Positions 5,087 to 39,220 of a stretch of DNA of 46,732 nucleotides are shown one piece after another. Each line of letters starts with the position of its first letter. Position 1 is the stretch's first letter. The stretch spans positions 5,533 through 52,264 of the IMG/VR virus record IMGVR_UViG_3300001589_000015; one strand, given 5' to 3'. Position numbers and translations under genes: made by a program. Source of the stretch: a virus. The notes under the pieces are model-generated. The model worked only from the letters and a program-made list of their open reading frames with translations, searched no databases and had not been told where the DNA came from.

Positions 5087-6024
5087 TCAAACGTTCTTAA
5101 GTGATTGTAGTTATGATCTAGTATATCCTGCATATCTTTAAACATATCTAAGTAATTCGATTCTATTTTATCCATTAAGTCGCAAACCATACTAGCACGT
5201 TTAGTAGTGTTTAGTTCTTCATCATAACTTTCATCCCAGTATTCTGAGAACGTTTTAAATCCTACATCATTTAAATGTTTAAGTGTAAAAGGTTGTCCTA
5301 CCATTAAAAATGGTGTTCTGCTGTTAAAACAGTTATATGTCTTTTCTGTTATAAAAAGGTAGTTAGGGTCATACCATGTATCAGTCTCATTAACAATATG
5401 AATGTATGCACTCTGATATAACCAAGTAGGTGTTTTCATGCCAGAGCCAATTGCTGTAAATTCTTGATCAACTGTTTTAGGCAACAGGTTATGAAGATGA
5501 CTGTATTGAGTAGGTTGATTATCTAGTAATGGTCCACAACTCCATATGGCATCTTTATGACGAATATGATTAACAATCTGTAACCTTACTTCCGTTGTTC
5601 TGCGATTAAAACTACTGAATGTTGCTTTTCGTTCATGTAGTTGTCTAACAAACTCCCATTGATTAGATGCGGTATTTACAGAATCCCTTGCAAAATTAGG
5701 TATGTAAATGCATTTATTAGGATAGAGAATCTCGTTATAAGGATTATTATCTAATAACACCCAATCATCTATGTTATACTTAGACAGTAACTTATCTATC
5801 TTTGGATGATCTTTTCTGTATATGGGATTAGTTTCATAAGGATCGTTTGCTTCATTTATAATGAAATCATCGTTATTATAAAACATCGATTCCATAGGAT
5901 ACCATATTGCCAGTTTAGCCTTACCACTGCTTAGATCGTCTTGTATGCTGTCTAAGTTAGGGGTTTCCTCCCATGGTAGTTGTATTACAGCATAGTATTG
6001 GTCGCCTAGATAAACTTTTTGCAT
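5044..6024 (-). CDS. Glycosyltransferase-like protein (fucosyltransferase/exostosin type)
   Basis: 326 residues. The C-terminal half has 'FITEKTYNCFNSRTPFLMVG' and then 'LKHLNDVGFKTF', the arrangement seen in the nucleotide-sugar-binding half of GT10-type fucosyltransferases and related phage GT-B enzymes (a Glu-Lys-Thr motif, then a 'P(F/I)' strand and a helix). The N-terminal half is not recognisable. It is a single minus-strand gene lying between two plus-strand SGNH genes and overlaps the first by 43 nt at the 3' end. A role in modifying host or virion glycans is inferred from the fold only. Confidence 0.6.
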   Translation of the reverse strand: MQKVYLGDQYYAVIQLPWEETPNLDSIQDDLSSGKAKLAIWYPMESMFYNNDDFIINEANDPYETNPIYRKDHPKIDKLLSKYNIDDWVLLDNNPYNEILYPNKCIYIPNFARDSVNTASNQWEFVRQLHERKATFSSFNRRTTEVRLQIVNHIRHKDAIWSCGPLLDNQPTQYSHLHNLLPKTVDQEFTAIGSGMKTPTWLYQSAYIHIVNETDTWYDPNYLFITEKTYNCFNSRTPFLMVGQPFTLKHLNDVGFKTFSEYWDESYDEELNTTKRASMVCDLMDKIESNYLDMFKDMQDILDHNYNHLRTFDYSLDSKLSTFGFK

Positions 6025-10029: not shown

Positions 10030-10057
10030 AGTATAGCATCAAAAGGGGAGTTGTCAA
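10030..10057 (-). promoter_or_regulatory. Sigma70-type early promoter
   Basis: Minus strand: TTGACA, 16-nt spacer ending TGC, TATACT. It belongs to the conserved GGTTGACA family of this window and drives the operon starting at 9996. Confidence 0.85.
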
Positions 10058-13067: not shown

Positions 13068-13095
13068 ATTATAGCATCTATACAGTTTGTGTCAA
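13068..13095 (-). promoter_or_regulatory. Sigma70-type early promoter (full consensus)
   Basis: Minus strand: TTGACA, 16-nt spacer ending TGC, TATAAT. Both boxes match consensus exactly. It drives the VWA operon at 13035. Confidence 0.9.
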
Positions 13096-22260: not shown

Positions 22261-23157
22261 CTAAGTACCCCAAGCATTACCAAACAAATTAATGTGTAAT
22301 CTGGGGCTAAATTTATAACCTGTATTCATACAGATTTCTGCTACATCTTTTTCTGTTAGTGTTTGTTGCTCAAATGTAGCACCTTCAGGCATCAAAAATA
22401 CACTATCTATTTTTACGTTTGCTTTTTTATATGCTGAGACGTATGCATCTACATCTGGTAAGCATAGTTCATCACGTACGACAAACTTATTATATAAAAA
22501 ACTATTTGTAACTTTATTCATACTAACCAAGCACTCTGGCTTCAAAGTATCTTCTCTTGTCTCTCCACTTATAGTCAATTTAGGACTGGTACTCCATGTG
22601 ACATGTACATCTTTTCCTTCATTGTTAAAGTAGTCTACCATATTATCTTCACAAAACTTACTACCATTAGTTTCAAATGTTACATTTACTAAACCAAAAT
22701 CAGCATGTAATATATCAATAAGTGCTGGCCAAACACGTTGCCACCCTAGTAGCGGTTCACCACCTGTGATCACCAAGTGTATGTCTTCACCGTGTCGGCC
22801 AGTAAATGTGCCCTTGGGAAGTAAACTAGTGATGTGATCAACCACTTCGTCAACAGATTTAGTCATCTGTAAATGTTTATACTTCATTGCCCAACTGGCA
22901 CTGGAATCACATCCTATTGGAGTGACTGGTAAATCTTCTATGCTTTTATAAGCCTGTGGATGGTTCTTGTCTGCTTTAGGATCTGTAACATAAGGCATTT
23001 CATCTGTTGCAATTAAGTTGCCTCGTTCTTGTCCAAATCCTGCACATTCAAAATTACAACCAAACGTTCTTAAAAAGACACTAGGCACACCGACAAATCT
23101 GCCTTCTCCCTGCACACTATAAAATGCTTCGCTGTATCTTAATTTAGGTTGTTTCAT
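22261..23157 (-). CDS. queE: 7-carboxy-7-deazaguanine synthase (radical SAM)
   Basis: 298 residues from the ATG at 23157. N-terminus 'SEAFYSVQGEGRFVGVPSVF' (residues 9-28) is the QueE signature, followed by 'GCNFEC' (Cys34, Cys38) and 'ITGGEPLL' (130-137), the SAM-binding GGE motif. The usual third cluster Cys three residues later is absent; the best candidate is Cys83 in 'PIGCDSSASW', after an insertion of about 40 residues, a layout I associate with phage QueE proteins. It converts CPH4 (from FolE and QueD) to CDG. The start overlaps the previous gene by 14 nt. Confidence 0.9.
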   Translation of the reverse strand: MKQPKLRYSEAFYSVQGEGRFVGVPSVFLRTFGCNFECAGFGQERGNLIATDEMPYVTDPKADKNHPQAYKSIEDLPVTPIGCDSSASWAMKYKHLQMTKSVDEVVDHITSLLPKGTFTGRHGEDIHLVITGGEPLLGWQRVWPALIDILHADFGLVNVTFETNGSKFCEDNMVDYFNNEGKDVHVTWSTSPKLTISGETREDTLKPECLVSMNKVTNSFLYNKFVVRDELCLPDVDAYVSAYKKANVKIDSVFLMPEGATFEQQTLTEKDVAEICMNTGYKFSPRLHINLFGNAWGT

Positions 23158-23671
23158 ATTTAACCTGATTGTATTCCTCTGTTGGTAAGCCACTAAGTAT
23201 AAAGTTAGGATCACTTATAGGTCCTATACAAAACTTAACTGCATGATAAACTATTTCATGTAAGTCGTTATCTAAGTAGGTAGTTACATTATTATTTAGG
23301 TCTGTAAATATCTCTATTAAAATATAACTTAATCCTTTCTCATATAGGAACGTTAGATCCTCTTCTTCAGGATACCATATTCTTGCAAAGGATATAATAT
23401 TAAAGTACATACCCTCACTCATGCTAATTGTTTCTAGGGACACATGGCCGTCTGTACCTATGTCTCTAAATTCTATATCACCTTCGACATGTTTGCATTT
23501 AGTGTCTGCAACAACATCTATAACTGCAAATATCTCTTCTTTATTGATTGGAAATCTATTCATTAAGAATTTAAAAGACTTCTTCTCTAATAGCAAGTCA
23601 GCAATATTCCAAATATTTACACCTGATCTGCTTAGGACCATTGTGTTTGTTGCATTTCTAGTTTCAATCAT
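23144..23671 (-). CDS. Hypothetical protein between folE and queE
   Basis: 175 residues, acidic, mixed alpha/beta. Its position between folE and queE would suit queD, but the zinc HxH motif and 'DF' segment of QueD are absent, and a better QueD candidate lies at 27438. 'IEFRDIGTDGHVSLETI' is beta-like, and 'DNDLHEIVYHAVKFC' is a helix. It starts in a TAATG overlap with folE and overlaps queE by 14 nt, so it is made together with both. It may be a partner of the deazaguanine pathway; the sequence itself gives no clue. Confidence 0.6.
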   Translation of the reverse strand: MIETRNATNTMVLSRSGVNIWNIADLLLEKKSFKFLMNRFPINKEEIFAVIDVVADTKCKHVEGDIEFRDIGTDGHVSLETISMSEGMYFNIISFARIWYPEEEDLTFLYEKGLSYILIEIFTDLNNNVTTYLDNDLHEIVYHAVKFCIGPISDPNFILSGLPTEEYNQVKYETT

Positions 23672-24360
23672 TACTTGTCACATGCAAATTGTTGTTGAAG
23701 TTTAATATTATCCATAAATTCTTTCTTTGTACCTGGATCATCTTTGAACGCACCTTTTAGAACAGTTGTCTGTGTTAGACTGCTATGTGCCTTAACACCT
23801 CTATTCTCTACACAACCATGTGTGGCTTGTATATAAACACCTAAGTGCTCGGCGTCAGTTGCCTTTTGAATCTCTCTAACAATATCGTTAGCAAGTTCTT
23901 CTTGTAGTGTTCCACGTTCAGCACACCATTGTGCAATCCTTGTATACTTACTTAGTCCAATTAGTTTGTCACTAGCAATAATGCCAATGTATGCTACACC
24001 TCTAACTATCTGGTGATGATGTGAACACATACTTGTAAGTTCACTACGCACAACTAACATACCCTCATACCTATCAATACTATCGTTAGGGAAAGCAGTT
24101 GCAACTGGCATAGGGTCATACCTGCCAGCCATTAGTTCGTTGATATACATCTTAGCAAGACGTTTGCCTGTGCCGTTGCTGTTAGGATCATTCTCAGTAT
24201 CAATTACAAGACCTTGTAATACTTCTTCAAACTTAGGAGCCAACTCATCTACGAGTTGCTGTTTGTCACCTTCGTCCATATAGTCAGAGATATTATCTCC
24301 TGCCCAAAACCTTTTACCGGCTTCTTTTAATCTTGCTTTAATTTTCTCACTAACTGACAT
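23671..24360 (-). CDS. folE: GTP cyclohydrolase I
   Basis: 229 residues, similar to the bacterial enzyme (about 220). Zinc ligands are clear: 'SMCSHHHQI' (Cys112, His115) and 'QATHGC' (Cys183). 'DRYEGMLVVRSELTS' before and 'ENRGVKAHSS' after match the family. It opens GTP to dihydroneopterin triphosphate, the first step to both folate and 7-deazaguanines. With queE next door and a transglycosylase in the window, the 7-deazaguanine route is the more likely purpose. It overlaps the small coiled-coil gene by 11 nt. Confidence 0.95.
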   Translation of the reverse strand: MSVSEKIKARLKEAGKRFWAGDNISDYMDEGDKQQLVDELAPKFEEVLQGLVIDTENDPNSNGTGKRLAKMYINELMAGRYDPMPVATAFPNDSIDRYEGMLVVRSELTSMCSHHHQIVRGVAYIGIIASDKLIGLSKYTRIAQWCAERGTLQEELANDIVREIQKATDAEHLGVYIQATHGCVENRGVKAHSSLTQTTVLKGAFKDDPGTKKEFMDNIKLQQQFACDK

Positions 24361-24550
24361 TTTTTAACTCCTTAATGTTTCCTTTCAGTTCTTCTATTTC
24401 CCTCTTTAGATTAAGTTTCTCAACCTTCTCATTTGCTAATACAGTATCATCCATATGATGCTCATAGTCACTTTCAATTTTCCTATCTAATTCTCTATGT
24501 CTTGTTTCTAAGACTTTAAGATGATTCTGTAAACTTACTAAACTGCTCAT
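24350..24550 (-). CDS. Small coiled-coil protein (YdcH/DUF465-like)
   Basis: 66 residues from the ATG that overlaps the phosphoribosyltransferase stop (ATGA) with GAGGAG 8 nt upstream. The whole protein is a helical hairpin: 'LQNHLKVLETRHRELDRKI', a short turn, then 'EKVEKLNLKREIEELKGNIKEL', close to the DUF465 pattern 'HxxLDxxI ... LKxxKLxLKxEI'. DUF465 proteins are small cytoplasmic coiled coils of unknown role. Confidence 0.6.
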   Translation of the reverse strand: MSSLVSLQNHLKVLETRHRELDRKIESDYEHHMDDTVLANEKVEKLNLKREIEELKGNIKELKNVS

Positions 24551-25035
24551 GTCCACCACTCCTCATACGGAAATACTATCCAACGCTCTTGATCAGGTAA
24601 CACTTCGTTAGCAGTATAATCTACATCTGCAAAGTTACTAGACTCTTTACTAAAGAGTGTTGAATATCTTAGTTCTTGATGCATGACTAATTGATTGTTA
24701 TTATGTTCACGATCAAACTTTTCTATAACTGCATTAATACCTATTAATGTTGTACCTGAGTCGTTAATGTCATCAACAACTAAAATCTTCTTACCCTTAT
24801 ATTTAGACAATTCGTGTTCTAATGTCACGGAATCTTCGATTGCACCATCTCTGGTTTGCCATCTAAATGCTTCAAAAGGTACTTCGAAGTAATGACTCAT
24901 CATTACACCAAAAGGATATGCGCCTCTACCAGGACCAATAATAACGTCTGGATGATAACTGTCATGTGCCATTTCTCTAACAATAGTTCTGCAATCAGAG
25001 ACCATATTGTCGTATGAGTAATATAATTTGTCCAT
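24547..25035 (-). CDS. Type I phosphoribosyltransferase
   Basis: 162 residues. 'IIGPGRGAYPFGVMMSHYF' (about 31-49) and the PRPP-binding 'KKILVVDDINDSGTTL' (about 79-94) are the two hallmark loops of type I phosphoribosyltransferases such as xanthine-guanine phosphoribosyltransferase. The substrate may be a purine base or, in this context, a deazapurine, but this is a guess. The -10 box of a strong promoter ends 6 nt before the ATG, so transcription may start at the start codon; AGGAG lies 13 nt upstream and would serve only longer read-through messages. Confidence 0.85.
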   Translation of the reverse strand: MDKLYYSYDNMVSDCRTIVREMAHDSYHPDVIIGPGRGAYPFGVMMSHYFEVPFEAFRWQTRDGAIEDSVTLEHELSKYKGKKILVVDDINDSGTTLIGINAVIEKFDREHNNNQLVMHQELRYSTLFSKESSNFADVDYTANEVLPDQERWIVFPYEEWWT

Positions 25036-25041
25036 GCTTAT

Positions 25042-25070
25042 AGTATATCTCCTTTAGACTTATTTGTCAA
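25042..25070 (-). promoter_or_regulatory. Sigma70-type promoter abutting the start codon
   Basis: Minus strand: TTGACA, 17-nt spacer, TATACT, then 6 nt and ATG. The predicted transcription start falls on the A of ATG. Confidence 0.75.
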
Positions 25071-25071
25071 G

Positions 25072-26034
25072 TTATTTTTGTAGGCTTTTTTGATAAGCAA
25101 TTTCATCTCTAACAATGTCTTCTAAACCAAAGTTTGCTTCCCAGCCAAACTCTTCCCATGCCCTTGCAATATTGGCTGATGTCTTATCTGCATCGCCTTC
25201 TCTTCTTGGACCTGTATCAGTATCTAATGTTAATTCTAATTGCTTTTCAACTTCTGCAATAACGTTTTTAATACTTTTACTAGCACCGCCACCTATGTTA
25301 AACACTCCACCATTGCCACCATCGAATAGATAGTTTAGTGCAGATACATGAGCAGATGCAATATCGGCTACATGAGTGTAGTCTCTTTCGCAAGTGCCAT
25401 CGCTTGTATCATAGTCATCACCATTAATAGTAAACTGCTCACCTTTCAGTGCTTTGTCTACAACTATTGGAAGTAAATGACTCTTTGGTTCTAATGTGTA
25501 ACCTAAACCTTCATAACTACCTGCGGCATTAAAGTATCTTAAACTTGCAAATGATAGTTCATAAGCATTAGAAAAGTCTTTTAGGACTTCTTCTATCATG
25601 TGTTTACTTTTACCGTATGGTGTTAAAGGGTTGGTTGGGTCTGTTTCTGTATTTAAAACGAAATCACTATTGCCATACACAGAACTTGAACTACTAAAGA
25701 CAAAATGCTTTACATTATTCCTAACACAATGCTTTAACAATGCAATTGAATTTGCAACGTTGTTATAGTATGTGTCTGCAGGTGCTTCTATGCTCAATGG
25801 CACACTATGATCTGCGGCCAAATGTATAACTGCATCTGGTTTAGTAAGTGCAATAACACCTTCTAGTTGATGATTATCTATATCAAATGGATATTGATGC
25901 ACACCTTCTAATTGTCTTTTTGCTCTATCGATATTAATTACGTTATAACCTGAGTCAACTAGAAACCTACAAGTAACACTACCTATAAATCCACTGCCTC
26001 CTGTAACTAAAATTGTTTTCTGCTGTTCGCTCAT
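25072..26034 (-). CDS. NAD-dependent sugar epimerase/dehydratase, UDP-glucose 4-epimerase-like
   Basis: 320 residues. Rossmann motif 'GGSGFIGS' (12-19), catalytic Ser strand 'HFVFSSSSSVYG' and active-site 'YGKSK' about 25 residues later make it a short-chain extended SDR. 'SLRYFNAAGS' and 'RDYTHVADIASAH' are typical of GalE-like epimerases. It would interconvert UDP-glucose and UDP-galactose (or the N-acetyl forms), feeding the glycosyltransferase gene immediately upstream, whose stop it overlaps (TAATG). The likely product is sugar for a host or virion glycan, or for DNA glucosylation as in T4; no DNA glucosyltransferase was seen here. Confidence 0.88.
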   Translation of the reverse strand: MSEQQKTILVTGGSGFIGSVTCRFLVDSGYNVINIDRAKRQLEGVHQYPFDIDNHQLEGVIALTKPDAVIHLAADHSVPLSIEAPADTYYNNVANSIALLKHCVRNNVKHFVFSSSSSVYGNSDFVLNTETDPTNPLTPYGKSKHMIEEVLKDFSNAYELSFASLRYFNAAGSYEGLGYTLEPKSHLLPIVVDKALKGEQFTINGDDYDTSDGTCERDYTHVADIASAHVSALNYLFDGGNGGVFNIGGGASKSIKNVIAEVEKQLELTLDTDTGPRREGDADKTSANIARAWEEFGWEANFGLEDIVRDEIAYQKSLQK

Positions 26035-27080
26035 TATTGATTTCCTATTATTTTATATAATGCTTCACCACTAAAGAAGTCTGCACCTAATTCAGATGCC
26101 AACTTAGTAGTAAGTGAATCATCACTCTTGCCTAGTATTTGCCTTATTTTTGCCATAAGTTTATCTTTGTGTTCCAAGTAGGTCTCGAAGTTCTCCGTCC
26201 ATTCACTTGGATACTTATATTCTTCGTCATACATTTCTGTGTAACTTAATCTATCAGGCACTAACGGAGAAGCATTTACTAATGCTCCTTCGTAGCAACT
26301 TATACCTAATGTCTCTTGAGTATTTGCACTAAACACAATCTTACTTCTGCTTAGTAGCATATGATACTCTTCCTTCGTTAGTTGTCGTTCTTGACAAATA
26401 ACAAACTCGACATCAGGCATACTAACTGATAAATCTTTAAATATATCGACTTGCTTTTCAGGTGCAAGTCTATGTGGGAACAATACCATATCATATTTGT
26501 TTGCATTACCACCTAACCCTTCAAGTAAGTTAACCATATATTCCATTGGCCAACCTACCCTATGTAGTTTAGTTGCATCTGCTTCTGGAAAGTTATCCAT
26601 AAACATATCGATATGAAACTGTGTTGCAAAGAAGTTATGATCAAAACAATCATACATACTTCTTTCAGCATTTCTAACCCAAGGTTTATCACCTATAAGT
26701 CTGCCTAAAAAGTCTGTAGGATCATAACTACCAGCATGCCACATTCCACCTATCTTTATTTCTACACCTAGCAATTCAGCCATATACTTTAATTGTATAA
26801 CAGTTGGATTCCATGCGTCAGTGTATAAGAAGTAATCTCCATTGTTGATTTTACCTTCAGCAAACAAATTAGCAATTTGCATCATCTGTCCGCTCTTCCA
26901 GTAATTAGTACCACTGAAATTGAGGAATGCTCCAGGAGTAGTATCCTGTGGAGCATCTTGAGGCCCTTGTATAACAGTTACATCTAACCCAGCAGATTGC
27001 ATTTGCCTAGGCAAATGTTCTTTCCACTCAGCCGTGTATCTAGTTTCAACAGGCTCTATTTCAACAATATAGACTTTCAT
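26034..27080 (-). CDS. Glycosyltransferase, GT-B fold (GT4-like)
   Basis: 348 residues. The C-terminal half has 'MVLFPHRLAPEKQVDIF' (about 223-239), then 'FVICQERQLTKEEYHMLLSRSKIVFSANTQETLGIS' and 'EGALVNASPLVPDRLSY', the 'R-x-x-x-EK' start and Glu-containing 'E-x-x-G' nucleotide-sugar site of GT4-type enzymes. Acceptor unknown. It is coupled to the epimerase gene. The -10 box of its promoter ends 6 nt before the ATG, and no ribosome site precedes the start, so the message is probably leaderless. Confidence 0.8.
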   Translation of the reverse strand: MKVYIVEIEPVETRYTAEWKEHLPRQMQSAGLDVTVIQGPQDAPQDTTPGAFLNFSGTNYWKSGQMMQIANLFAEGKINNGDYFLYTDAWNPTVIQLKYMAELLGVEIKIGGMWHAGSYDPTDFLGRLIGDKPWVRNAERSMYDCFDHNFFATQFHIDMFMDNFPEADATKLHRVGWPMEYMVNLLEGLGGNANKYDMVLFPHRLAPEKQVDIFKDLSVSMPDVEFVICQERQLTKEEYHMLLSRSKIVFSANTQETLGISCYEGALVNASPLVPDRLSYTEMYDEEYKYPSEWTENFETYLEHKDKLMAKIRQILGKSDDSLTTKLASELGADFFSGEALYKIIGNQ

Positions 27081-27086
27081 ATTAAT

Positions 27087-27115
27087 AGTATACTACTTCT
27101 TACTCTTATTGTCAA
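27087..27115 (-). promoter_or_regulatory. Sigma70-type promoter abutting the start codon
   Basis: Minus strand: TTGACA, 17-nt spacer, TATACT, then 6 nt and ATG, exactly as at 25042-25070. It lies within the 3' end of a 51-residue gene. Confidence 0.75.
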
Positions 27116-27248
27116 GTCCTATATCACCATAGTCAACTACGTGAGTAATTGGGTCATTAAGATCTTGTGCAAAGTCAGACATTTTCTCTGCTTCATCTTT
27201 GCTAATCTTCTTAGGTGTACTTGACGTGTTTGAACTTTCAGTAGTCAT
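27093..27248 (-). CDS. Small polar hypothetical protein
   Basis: 51 residues. Its ATG shares an A with the previous stop (TAATG). The sequence is Ser/Thr/Lys/Asp-rich ('TTESSNTSSTPKKISKDEAEKM', split by a short helix, then 'DPITHVVDYGDIGLDNKSKK'). No motif. Supported by translational coupling only. Confidence 0.5.
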   Translation of the reverse strand: MTTESSNTSSTPKKISKDEAEKMSDFAQDLNDPITHVVDYGDIGLDNKSKK

Positions 27249-27437: not shown

Positions 27438-27872
27438 TTATTTTAAACTATCAAATACATCTGCTATTGCATCAGTATCATCAAAATTTGGACCATCCAA
27501 TTCTTCTACTGGATACTCCATTTCGCAACCGTTTTCATTATCTTCGGCTACTGAAATCTTTATATAACGACCTGGATACCTTGCTTGTATCTCTGCCGCT
27601 AAGTTGTCTGCAATCATCTCGCAGGACTTGTTGTTAAGTTGGATTACATCTTCTTTGTATAAGTTCTCCAACCATCTTTTAAATTGTATAAACTCTATAT
27701 CTCTATCATCATGGAATACTTCTATCCATACTTTAAAGTGAAATATATGTCTGTGCTTGTATCCTAAAAAGGATACATCATACTCATCTCCTGTCGCTGT
27801 AGCAGGGTTTGTGTCTGCTCCAGGATAAAAGTGTATGCCTTCTTTACTAAATGTTACCCAAATACTTCTCAT
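27438..27872 (-). CDS. queD: 6-carboxy-tetrahydropterin synthase-like protein (QueD fold)
   Basis: 144 residues from the ATG at 27872 (the family is about 120-150). A His early in the chain ('KEGIHFYPGA', His14) and the pair 'KHRHIFHF' (His40, His42) give the zinc triad of the PTPS/QueD fold. 'EVFHDDRDIEFIQFKRWLE' takes the place of the 'GMVxDFxxLK' strand-helix, and 'SCEMIADNLAAEI' followed by 'IKISVAEDNENGCEMEY' takes that of the 'PTxENLA' helix and the Glu-containing strand. It would turn dihydroneopterin triphosphate from FolE into the substrate of QueE. Divergent from bacterial QueD, so the function is likely rather than certain. Confidence 0.7.
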   Translation of the reverse strand: MRSIWVTFSKEGIHFYPGADTNPATATGDEYDVSFLGYKHRHIFHFKVWIEVFHDDRDIEFIQFKRWLENLYKEDVIQLNNKSCEMIADNLAAEIQARYPGRYIKISVAEDNENGCEMEYPVEELDGPNFDDTDAIADVFDSLK

Positions 27873-28285
27873 TATGCTTCCTCGTTTGGATTCCACATTA
27901 CCAAATTACTCTTCTTGAGTCTGTTGGTAACAATAGTCCATCTATTCTGTTCTGCTTTCCATTCTTTCAACCATTTGTGACCATCACGTTCTGCATCAAT
28001 AAAGATCGCATTGGTAAATGCCAATGGTAGCAATACAGCAACATGTATAAAGATACTTATAATTGTATTGTAGTTAAAGAATCCTAAATAGTTTGCGGCT
28101 AAGAATCCAAAGAACACACTCCATACAGTAAACAGCACTAACATAAAGTAAGTCTGTAGACTTGGGTCAGGTATATACTTCAATGGATTGTATTTCACAT
28201 CCATTACTCTTCTCCAGCCATTTACAAGACTAAACATAGTCCTTCTAAATAAACTTGGCTTTTTCATCATTGGTTCAATTTTCAT
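27872..28285 (-). CDS. Membrane protein with two transmembrane segments
   Basis: 137 residues, AGGAG before ATG. Two hydrophobic segments (about residues 46-68 'YFMLVLFTVWSVFFGFLAA' and 76-96 'IISIFIHVAVLLPLAF') flanked by basic residues place both ends in the cytoplasm. The C-terminal 40 residues are charged ('ERDGHKWLKEWKAEQNRW'). No enzyme motif. Shares one base with the QueD-like start. Possible roles include a holin-like or superinfection protein; nothing shows which. Confidence 0.65.
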   Translation of the reverse strand: MKIEPMMKKPSLFRRTMFSLVNGWRRVMDVKYNPLKYIPDPSLQTYFMLVLFTVWSVFFGFLAANYLGFFNYNTIISIFIHVAVLLPLAFTNAIFIDAERDGHKWLKEWKAEQNRWTIVTNRLKKSNLVMWNPNEEA

Positions 28286-29369: not shown

Positions 29370-29881
29370 TAGTCAATTATTTCATCCTTGGTGTATTTGG
29401 TCCAGTCGGTAAATCCTTTACGTGACTGTAGTTCGTGTATTGATCGCACCCAAACACCTGGGTTGGTTGCGTCAAATCCTTTATCGTCAAACTTAATACA
29501 AGCATTATAGTTCAGTGCTTCTATGTGAGGTATCTTTACACTAAGCATAGATATAAAGTTATTCTGTTCATTCCAGCCCTCATCTAATACTTGTTCATGA
29601 TACTTAATATCATAATCTAGTGTTACCCAAATGCCTTCACTTACTAGGCCACCTATAACAAAGTTCCATTCAGTCCATTCTGCTTCTGTTTCAGGATGGA
29701 ACGATTGATTAGCACCTAAGTAAATATGAGGGCAGTTGTTGTTTAATGCTCTAGCAAGTATTTCTTTTAAGTTTTGCACTCCTATTACAAACAATGTTTT
29801 CTGTCCGTATGCTGGAGTATGCTCTACCTCAGTACCTGTAAAGTATCTTGTATCGTCTGTGTGCCCGTCTCTATTCTTCAA
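29369..29881 (-). CDS. Unknown protein coupled to the transglycosylase
   Basis: 170 residues with a TTG start, supported by a strong GGAGGAG just upstream. It overlaps the transglycosylase 3' end by 11 nt. The protein is alpha/beta: 'KTLFVIGVQNLKEILARAL' (strand-helix), 'CPHIYLGANQSFHPE', 'WNFVIGGLVSEGIWVTLDYD', 'FISMLSVKIPHIEALNYNACIKFDD'. The alternating strand and helix pattern suggests a half TIM-barrel or Rossmann-like fold. Tight coupling suggests a helper or accessory enzyme of the DNA/tRNA modification step. No known family identified by eye. Confidence 0.6.
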   Translation of the reverse strand: MKNRDGHTDDTRYFTGTEVEHTPAYGQKTLFVIGVQNLKEILARALNNNCPHIYLGANQSFHPETEAEWTEWNFVIGGLVSEGIWVTLDYDIKYHEQVLDEGWNEQNNFISMLSVKIPHIEALNYNACIKFDDKGFDATNPGVWVRSIHELQSRKGFTDWTKYTKDEIID

Positions 29882-31464
29882 AGAACTCCTCCGTCATTGC
29901 TGGGTCCATCATAGTATCTGCATAGTCTCTAATTTCATCTTCGTGTAACTCGCCTGTTTCAACTGGGTTACTGGTTTGTTCAAAGAAGGCATTAAGAGCA
30001 TTATCTGGATCTTCATTTTCAACTTTGTATATACCAAAGTTAATTTGCTGTATAAGTTTGTCGTAATCTTTTATCAATTGATATGGATCTGGACATGCTG
30101 GATCTAATACTTCTTGCACAAAACTGTCAAATGCAATTACATCTGCAGGCACATAAGGTGATATGTCGTTAGTTGGTTTGCTTTTCTTATCATGTATAAA
30201 GTCTTTATGCGACCAATTAATTCTATGCTTCTCAATATCAGTTAGCCTATTTGCTTCTTGAACAGCACTTATATGATTATATACACTATGACCCATGTAT
30301 AAGATATAACTTAATGTATCCCAACTTGTTGAGTCTGCCTCTTTGGCTTTACCATTTCTATTAACATCGCCTTCTGCCATACAGCATAAGTCACCAATAG
30401 TAAGTCTACTCATTATAGGTGAATGACCAAACGGTGCAGGTAGTTTACTGCCTTTGAACATTTGATTATCAAATGCTCTATCCATAAAGTAACCAAAACG
30501 TTTGCCTTTGTTCTCAAAGATATTGTATGCGTATGTTTGACCGTATGCAGTATTAACAAAGGGAGATGCCGCATCAAACGATAGTGTGATGTTTGGAGAA
30601 TCATGTTTTCTTAACATTCTTTGTATAGATGTTAAATGACATGCCCATTGTAGTCTACCTGTTCCTAAGAAGTGTATCCAACCTTTATCTTTAAGTAAGC
30701 CATCTTTACGAAGTTCAAGAATTCTGTGAAGTACACATTTCATATTACGCATATTAATACCAGCGAATGCATAACCTTCTAGTGCTTTGTTCTCATCTCC
30801 GTATGCTTCTTTAACAAAAAGCAGGATCACTAAAGTTCTTAACTGCTTCATACCATACATCTGAACTATATTCATCTGAACCAGACAGCACATTAAGAAA
30901 CTTGCACTTCTCTGGATTCCTGTTCTGTAAAAAATAATGTAAGTTAAGTACAGAAATATCAACTGTATCTTGAAACGACTCTAACCCTGTTCTTTCTTTA
31001 TAAGGTGGCGCCGCCGCAAAGCCTGGAATATCTAGTGTCATTGCCCAATCGGCTGTATGCTCTTCCCATTCAAGTATCTTTTTACACAATGCCAACCTAG
31101 CAGGGTCATTAGGATCTTTAGCATTCGCCCAATCCATTTTAAGTACACCTGTAGCAATTTGGAAACCACCTGAGTCACCAAGTATCATTGTCTTACTTTG
31201 ATCTCTATCTTGTATCATCTTTTCATTAGCATTGCTCTTCTCAATATCTAAGTGAGCATGACCTGCCGAATACAAACCATATGGATAATGAAAGTAACTA
31301 TCATCTTTAAGAAAATCTAAACCAGCAAGACCTTTTTCAAACCCTTCTATAGTTCTCCATTCATCTGGATTGTCTAAGCACTTTTGTAATTGCTTAGTAT
31401 AAAAACTTGATATAGCAGGTAGGTATACTGCATAATCTGATTGTGTCTTGCCTAAATCGTGCAT
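29871..31464 (-). CDS. dpdA: tRNA-guanine/DNA transglycosylase-like protein (DpdA type), split by frameshift
   Basis: Two frames join into one protein of about 530 residues. The first frame (31464-30811) has the TGT catalytic block 'LGDSGGFQ' (Asp97) and 'DWAMTLDIPGFA' (Asp145 region). The second (to 29871) has 'GWIHFLGTGR' and 'TLSFDAASP', matching the late barrel strands and second Asp of TGT. The join is at a T5 run (30816-30820): the first frame stops just after it, and removing one T restores 'DPAFVKEAYGDENK'. No Cys-zinc site of bacterial TGT was seen, as in DpdA proteins. It would swap guanine for a 7-deazaguanine in DNA or tRNA. Mutation, sequencing error or +1 shifting could explain the break. 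Confidence 0.7.
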
Positions 31465-31467
31465 AGT

Positions 31468-32223
31468 TTAACTCTTCGCAGGTAATAAGTAAGTGTAAAC
31501 GCCTAGTCCACTGTCTACTTTAATTTGTAATAGTCCTTGATCGTTAATGCTTAGAACACAGTTACCACTGTTACCAAGTCTTAAGATTCTAAGTACAACA
31601 TCCAAAGGCCACTTCCAGTCTTTAGAAATAATACCTTCACAAGCATCTGATACAAGAACTGATGCTCTATCACTAATGCCATCACCAATATTAAAAGATA
31701 ACTTAGTGCCATCAGTTACTGGTGAGAACATTGCCTCATATGAACTTAATATAGTATTAAAGTACCCTAAGTCCTTTAAGTTCTTTGCAGTAGGCACAAT
31801 GTTAATATCAAACTCAGCACCTTTAAACTTAATACTTTTAAGTTGCTGGTTAATAACATCTGCTAACATAAATCTGTAGTTAGCATCAGTACCTTCTGTA
31901 CTTTCAAACTCTACTTCAACCGGAACATTCGCTCCGTTTCTTTCTTGAAACTTAACTTTCACAGTTGCCGCCTCGTCATCAAAACTAGGATAACTTAAAT
32001 ATCCTTGTAAGACTCCCATTCTGCTCAACCCGATTGTAGAGTCTACAAAGTCAGGAACTGGGTTAATTGTTTCACCTTTAAAGATAACAGTCTTATCAGC
32101 ATCAACAGTTTCTACAACTGTCTTATCTAAGTCTCCTGTAATCTTTACCATTTCGAAGATACCTAAACCATGTGTATGTTTCAATACATCTTTTAGGATA
32201 TCTTTAATTGCATTTTCGGCCAT
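31468..32223 (-). CDS. gp45: Sliding clamp, DNA polymerase accessory protein
   Basis: 251 residues (T4 gp45 is 228). Starts with a helix 'IKDILKDVLKHTHGLGIFEMVKITG' and has a C-terminal 'LSINDQGLLQIKVDSGLGVYTYLLPA', the end strand of the second clamp domain in this family. Position directly upstream of the polymerase-size gene fits T4-like order. It tethers the polymerase to DNA and, in T4, also activates late promoters through gp55/gp33. The promoter at 32249-32276 and GGAG before the ATG give it an independent start. Confidence 0.85.
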   Translation of the reverse strand: MAENAIKDILKDVLKHTHGLGIFEMVKITGDLDKTVVETVDADKTVIFKGETINPVPDFVDSTIGLSRMGVLQGYLSYPSFDDEAATVKVKFQERNGANVPVEVEFESTEGTDANYRFMLADVINQQLKSIKFKGAEFDINIVPTAKNLKDLGYFNTILSSYEAMFSPVTDGTKLSFNIGDGISDRASVLVSDACEGIISKDWKWPLDVVLRILRLGNSGNCVLSINDQGLLQIKVDSGLGVYTYLLPAKS

Positions 32224-32248
32224 ATATATTCTCCAATATTAAACTTAA

Positions 32249-32276
32249 ATTATACATTACTATTTAGATTTGTCAA
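32249..32276 (-). promoter_or_regulatory. Sigma70-type promoter for the clamp gene
   Basis: Minus strand: ACTTGACA, 16-nt spacer, TATAAT. It belongs to a second subgroup with ACTTGACAA (also 25042 and 27087) but, unlike them, leaves a normal leader with GGAG. Confidence 0.8.
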
Positions 32277-38593: not shown

Positions 38594-38621
38594 AGTATAA
38601 CGTCTTTTTCAGTATTGTCAA
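38594..38621 (-). promoter_or_regulatory. Sigma70-type early promoter
   Basis: Minus strand: TTGACA, 16-nt spacer, TATACT; CGGTTGACA block, with CGT in place of the usual TGC before the -10. It overlaps the stop of the HAD gene. Confidence 0.8.
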
Positions 38622-39220
38622 CCGGTATTAACTACTAAATTGTAAATTTCTTCCCAATTTACCACAACATTTGCTTGGCCTGTGTAGTCCATGTTGTGTC
38701 CATGCTCCATTAAGATACCATTAAGTCCAAAGTCTATACCTAGATCAACATTCTCTGGTTTGTCCTCAATCCAGTATGCTCCTGGGTATTGTTCACTATA
38801 TGGTTTTAGCACGTCATCTTTGTCAGCACCTGTGTCTAAGCATATTACATCTAAGAAGCAGTTGTCTCCAAACATCTTTTTGAGATTCTTTTCTCTAAGT
38901 TTCTGAGAATAAGGATTAAGACTTAGGCTTGTGATTGCTATAAACTGATACTGATGTTGCTCATGTAACTTCTTAATAAAGTATTGAGCATCTCTGAGTG
39001 GAGGAAGGAATCCTATTGCCGCACTCTCATTAAATGTTTTAATAACAATATCGCCTGATGCGTCTGTTGGTAAGTTATACTTCTGTCTTACTGAGTAATA
39101 CTTATTGTGTCCTTCAACTGGTTGGTGCCCTTGGAACTCCATATACTCACCAAATGCATATTCCCAATTTAGAACAACACCGTCTATGTCTGTTAAAATA
39201 ATCTTTGATTTGTCTGTCAT
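38618..39220 (-). CDS. HAD-superfamily phosphatase-like protein
   Basis: 200 residues. Motif I 'ILTDIDGVVLNW' (Asp11, Asp13), motif II 'FIAITSLS' with the Thr/Ser (about 95-102) and motif III/IV 'AYWIEDKPENV' (about 149-159) form a full HAD active site. It resembles the 5'-nucleotidase or PseT-phosphatase size class, but no kinase domain is attached. It may remove phosphate from nucleotides or sugars. It has its own promoter (39248-39276). No Shine-Dalgarno of strength was seen before the ATG. Confidence 0.75.
   Translation of the reverse strand: MTDKSKIILTDIDGVVLNWEYAFGEYMEFQGHQPVEGHNKYYSVRQKYNLPTDASGDIVIKTFNESAAIGFLPPLRDAQYFIKKLHEQHQYQFIAITSLSLNPYSQKLREKNLKKMFGDNCFLDVICLDTGADKDDVLKPYSEQYPGAYWIEDKPENVDLGIDFGLNGILMEHGHNMDYTGQANVVVNWEEIYNLVVNTG

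Follow-up and report, generated by a model that had tools for sequence, protein, structure and literature searches.

Two genes on the minus strand of a phage genome fragment, studied here as a 46,732-nt window (positions 5,533 to 52,264 of IMG/VR record IMGVR_UViG_3300001589_000015), are each immediately preceded by a consensus-like promoter and are predicted to be leaderless. The first (24547..25035) encodes a 162-aa phosphoribosyltransferase (PRTase; Pfam PF00156, 7e-16; phrog_8995, 1e-15) and the second (26034..27080) a 348-aa protein with zero matches in Pfam, NCBIfam, or PHROG. Upstream of the second gene, on the same strand, a 51-aa ORF (27093..27248) ends with a TAG stop in the same frame, 12 nt before the ATG at 27080. 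Genes of the 7-deazaguanine type adjoin the PRTase (QueE-like, 22261-23214; GTP cyclohydrolase, 23671-24360), and queE, PRTase, 6-carboxytetrahydropterin synthase, and GTP cyclohydrolase are also adjacent to one another in BUCT-ZZ01. A gene at 27438-27896 has an unnamed PHROG as its sole match. Two overlapping ORFs (30811-31464 and 29871-30962; region 29871-31464) read by eye as one protein split by a frameshift, and those pieces of the pair that were compared with Pfam and NCBIfam matched neither. Large T4-like phages infecting Sinorhizobium and Agrobacterium have the DNA polymerases nearest to that of the contig, and the phage is taken to be marine from its T4-like marine relatives. No near DNA matches were found among phage isolates, and a search of genome contigs confirmed no cellular homologues of the PRTase.

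Two promoters adjoining start codons

The arrangement reported in the earlier note holds when the minus strand is read, with TTGACA, a 17-nt spacer, TATACT, 6 nt, and ATG in identical order at both sites. For the PRTase, the -35 box (TTGACA) lies at 25065..25070, the -10 box (TATACT) at 25042..25047, and a discriminator of 6 nt at 25036..25041, followed by the ATG (25035-25033) with the predicted +1 on the A at 25035. For the 348-aa gene, the -35 box (27110..27115) lies inside the upstream ORF, at its 3' end, and is followed by the -10 box (TATACT, 27087..27092), the discriminator ATTAAT (27081..27086), and the ATG (27080-27078). Both sites have the TTGACA and TATAAT-like boxes, 16-18 bp apart, of sigma70-type promoters, as well as the layout of TA-led genes, in which the -10 box lies about 12 bp before the start codon and the +1 falls on the start codon. 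The window contains two copies of the pattern TTGACA-N16..18-TATAMT-N5..7-ATG, for which dinucleotide shuffles give an expectation of 0.01, and the same two are the total for the whole 55.9-kb contig, where the reversed-pattern control gave 0. The scans demanded an ATG, with which both window genes start. Neither ORF has an in-frame ATG, GTG, or TTG between its start (25035, 27080) and the preceding stop, which rules out alternative upstream starts, and a stop/start overlap with the preceding gene is absent at both (gap of 36 bp at 25035 and 12 bp at 27080).

Taking the predicted +1, both transcripts would be without a Shine-Dalgarno (SD) sequence. The claim that 27080 has no SD stands up, the best anti-SD duplex being -2.4 kcal/mol and located 20 nt away. 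Before the PRTase there is an SD-like hexamer, AAGGAG (25049..25054, minus strand), 13 nt from the ATG; because it lies inside the promoter spacer, it would be missing from a transcript started at the promoter, and it might be usable by longer transcripts only, and then poorly spaced. GGAG is likewise present in the PRTase upstream regions of three of the closest relatives (L004, L006, and L007).

The -35 flank, described previously as shared by the two sites and different from that of the other promoter family, fared less evenly: AC precedes the -35 box at both sites, but the flank is not exclusive to them. It was rejected as a mark of the leaderless class, since the promoter at 32276, which has a leader, follows a GAC as well. 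This comparator (TTGACA promoter, 32223..32276, minus strand) has an ordinary leader and a GGAG before the ATG at 32223. A second comparator on the minus strand (10030..10057) belongs to a family, here family A, with the form ggTTGACA-N16-TATACTATATGTAT and also has a leader and a GGAG before its ATG; further family-A promoters on that strand lie at 13095, 15371, 15630, 37404, and 38621. The other consensus promoters of the window (for instance 10057, 13095, 15371, 15630, 32276, 37404, and 38621) have leaders of ordinary length, mostly with an SD-like sequence, which sets the two 6-nt sites apart from their neighbours. In the family ggTTGACA-N16-TATACT/TATAAT, ATATGTAT often comes after the -10 box, together with a leader some 30-45 nt long, and related contigs carry motifs resembling ATATGTAT downstream of promoters.

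Conservation of the spacing among homologues

A protein search of viral contigs with the PRTase returned 80 loci, which were aligned at the start codon. The sequence TTGAC-16/17-TATAAT-6-ATG recurs in many of these homologues despite quite different surroundings. Among 31 distinct upstream regions, pairwise identity was 88% in the -10 box, 45% in the spacer, and 44% in the discriminator, compared at the same loci with 56% in the first 30 nt of the coding sequence; between promoter and ATG the length is conserved and the sequence is not. A motif close to GCCAnnAAAAnnnGG is shared directly before TATAAT, within the 17-nt spacer, by eight of the PRTase promoters (L001, L009, L016, L037, L048, L049, L060, and L062) and may represent a regulator site or common descent.

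A tree was built from 54 distinct PRTase proteins of viral contigs, the window's own included. The promoter stands exactly 6 nt before the ATG in 31 of the 54 and at 5 nt in one; 13 start by a stop/start overlap with the upstream gene and have no promoter, and nine have neither. The gap to the upstream stop differs between homologues. Promoter and other states switch at least eight times on the tree, such that the promoter and the coupled start look like interchangeable solutions. The nine include a close relative (L004) that upstream of 1769 has a degraded -10 box (TACTAT) and retains GGAG, and which may depend on a longer transcript.

For the 348-aa protein, two close homologues (L081 and L084) have the promoter at 6 nt, with TATAAT as the -10 box, and two more distant ones (L083 and L085) do not. 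The end of the 51-aa upstream ORF is also found in L081 and L084, and conservation of the second -35 box is partly confounded by coding because the box overlaps that ORF.

Promoter-to-start distances across related phages

Over 1.21 Mb, comprising the window and 60 stretches of related contigs, the gap was recorded between each strong -10 box, preceded at 16-18 nt by TTGAC, and the first ATG to begin an ORF of 50 codons or more; gene starts were based on ORFs, and the contigs are fragments. The distribution is bimodal, with an isolated spike at 6 nt: 33 cases at 6 nt, two at 5, four at 7, two at 8-19, and 124 at 20-45, the 6-nt count being possibly somewhat inflated by larger contigs in which stretches near pattern matches were sometimes favoured (several contigs, G006, G010, G017, G025, and G031, were taken whole). 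The contigs had first been found via the PRTase gene; without PRTase genes, and counting every qualifying ATG, 26 cases remained at 6 nt versus 0.41 per position nearby. When the -35 box was mis-spaced, scrambled, or reversed, the spike was gone, with 0-1 cases at 6 nt. SD matches of 4 nt or more were present in eight of the 39 genes in the 5-7 nt class versus 110 of the 124 in the 18-45 nt class.

A separate IMG/VR sample was picked by pattern alone and compared by share among the matches listed. The ATG was the earliest start of an ORF 60 or more codons long for 53 of 121 N6 matches (44%), 24 of 114 N9 matches (21%), and 3 of 123 N4 matches (2%). The peak at 6 nt is clear among these listed matches, and short gaps such as 9 nt are not empty among viruses at large.

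Beyond the PRTase, the 6-nt class in related contigs includes DnaJ (seven contigs), the 348-aa protein (three contigs), and a family in five contigs that by eye resembles the window's NT5C-like protein (38618-39220), along with one or two cases each of SufC, SufE, a UPF0227/YqiA-like esterase, a primase-like protein, DNA polymerase, and a 5'-3' exonuclease/RNase H-like protein. Among the listed matches of the IMG/VR sample are UvsY, two clamp-loader families, DNA helicase, primase, thymidylate synthase, dCMP deaminase, and DNA ligase. The isolate P-SSM2, a Prochlorococcus phage, has two annotated genes (PSSM2_036 and PSSM2_156) that start 6 nt after a consensus promoter (NC_006883.2, 39765-39802 and 134575-134612). 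No 6-nt site was present in Phosso or Atu_ph07, the closest annotated phages by DNA polymerase, or in T4, Syn9, or HTVC008M, and the single pattern match in BUCT-ZZ01 has no annotated gene start. As a separate observation, genes for the Fe-S cluster assembly proteins SufC and SufE occur in uncultured phages (L217:13684-14379, L247:2597-3292, and L226:9254-9625), with promoters that are apparently leaderless; a by-eye reading of L217 and L247 as gp46 was dropped, as NCBIfam gives SufC for L217.

These distributions bear on an unlikely alternative, in which the genes are translated mainly from long polycistronic transcripts by reinitiation after an upstream stop and the promoter abuts the ATG merely through genome compaction. 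Compaction predicts a spread of short distances and not a spike at 6 nt with almost none at 8-19, and reinitiation leaves unexplained why a -10 box is conserved at a fixed distance amid diverging flanks when the distance to the upstream stop is not constant among homologues. What speaks for reinitiation is the local arrangement, with co-directional neighbours and short gaps, an upstream stop 12 nt before 27080, and the AAGGAG 13 nt before 25035, together with the 13 PRTase homologues that start by overlap without a promoter.

Predicted start point and relation to known leaderless genes

Bacterial RNA polymerase favours a transcription start site (TSS) 7 bp past the -10 element (PMC5730371), and with a gap of 6 nt the preferred +1 would thus be the A of the ATG. 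The base before the ATG is a pyrimidine at 53 of 57 sites versus 96 of 145 leadered genes (p = 6e-5), and at 27 of 29 sites without the PRTase (p = 0.003), though kinship inflates the significance of both, the related sequences not being independent and the p-values therefore overstated. A pyrimidine at this position would be as expected for a -1/+1 initiator. It also bears on the proposal, itself very improbable, that polymerase starts just ahead of the ATG and leaves leaders of 1-4 nt. TSSs do vary by 1-2 nt, and discriminators rich in purines shift the start upstream (PMC5730371), but a pyrimidine is a poor initiating nucleotide and the A of the ATG already occupies the preferred position 7; leaders of 1-4 nt would in any case be functionally nearly the same as leaderless starts. 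Chance look-alikes in AT-rich phage DNA, where TATAAT hexamers are common (1929 in the 1.21-Mb sample), are refuted by the shuffle expectation (two in the window against 0.01), the loss of the spike unless the -35 box is correctly spaced, and conservation across PRTase homologues at 43-77% identity.

The earlier prediction of leaderless mRNAs is supported by the conserved 6-nt distance, the -35-dependent spike, the scarcity of SD sequences, the pyrimidine at -1, the recurrence of the class in unrelated genes, the replacement of the promoter by stop/start overlap in other homologues, and the geometry of lambda cI (see below). Weighing on the other side are the AAGGAG before the PRTase with GGAG in its closest relatives, the degraded -10 box of L004 beside an intact GGAG, and the lack of a 6-nt site in Phosso and Atu_ph07. 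Judged from these sequence features, both sites are very probably sigma70-type promoters that would start messages on the A of the ATG, making the PRTase and the 348-aa gene genuine leaderless genes in an SD-led genome. Under the leaderless reading, the host sigma70 RNA polymerase would begin each message at the A of its start codon, leaving the mRNA with no 5' leader, and the ribosome, largely as a 70S particle, would bind the 5'-terminal AUG by the leaderless route (PMC9031893); both genes may be expressed early. TSS slippage of 1-2 nt can leave a 1-nt leader or drop the A. Because the neighbouring genes are co-directional with short gaps, transcription probably also reads through from the genes upstream and may thereby provide a coupled route as well.

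T4-like phages are generally pictured as relying on SD-led initiation. Leaderless genes with a start-proximal -10 box are already known from bacteria and from the phages lambda and phiYS40. The lambda cI mRNA transcribed from PRM is likewise that of a phage gene, with a -10 hexamer (TAGATT; sequence checked) exactly 6 nt before the ATG. It is one regulated gene, for a repressor, and its -35 is weak, whereas the promoters described here are consensus-like and serve genes of metabolism and replication in many uncultured phages. The cI message is a standard leaderless mRNA of translation studies (PMC9031893). In the Thermus phage phiYS40, most middle and late transcripts are leaderless, which has been tied to changes in IF2 and IF3 (PMC3594737); it is alike in being a phage with many leaderless messages, whereas here the leaderless class is a minority beside SD-led genes. 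In the TA-led genes of bacteria, a -10 box about 12 bp before the start is a sign of leaderless transcription (Zheng 2011, PMC3160421; Deinococcus-Thermus 2025, PMC12340547), but these are genes of cellular genomes, often with TANNNT alone, in contrast to the full -35 and -10 boxes found here in viral genomes that otherwise use SD sequences. The alphaproteobacterium Sinorhizobium meliloti has 171 TSSs mapped to the A of an AUG, all of the starts being AUG (PMC3616915); those leaderless mRNAs belong to host genes, whereas the present ones belong to phage genes and are leaderless by sequence prediction.

No report of leaderless transcripts in cyanophages or T4-like marine phages was found in the literature searched, in which subscription journals were thinly covered, and the breadth and conservation of the leaderless class in these phages appear to be unreported there. 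A leaderless class that recurs and is conserved among replication and metabolism genes would affect the annotation of gene starts in viral metagenomes, and the 6-nt spike would offer a culture-free sequence test for it. Homologues that are leaderless in one phage and coupled in another would form natural pairs for testing what each route is worth. The prediction is testable in culture because two annotated genes of the isolate P-SSM2 share this geometry. It is conceivable, though doubtful, that uncultured marine T4-like phages include a large group with a two-class translation programme, in which most genes are SD-led and a set that recurs, with nucleotide, replication, chaperone, and Fe-S functions, is leaderless and would differ in its response once infection changes the initiation factors or ribosomes.
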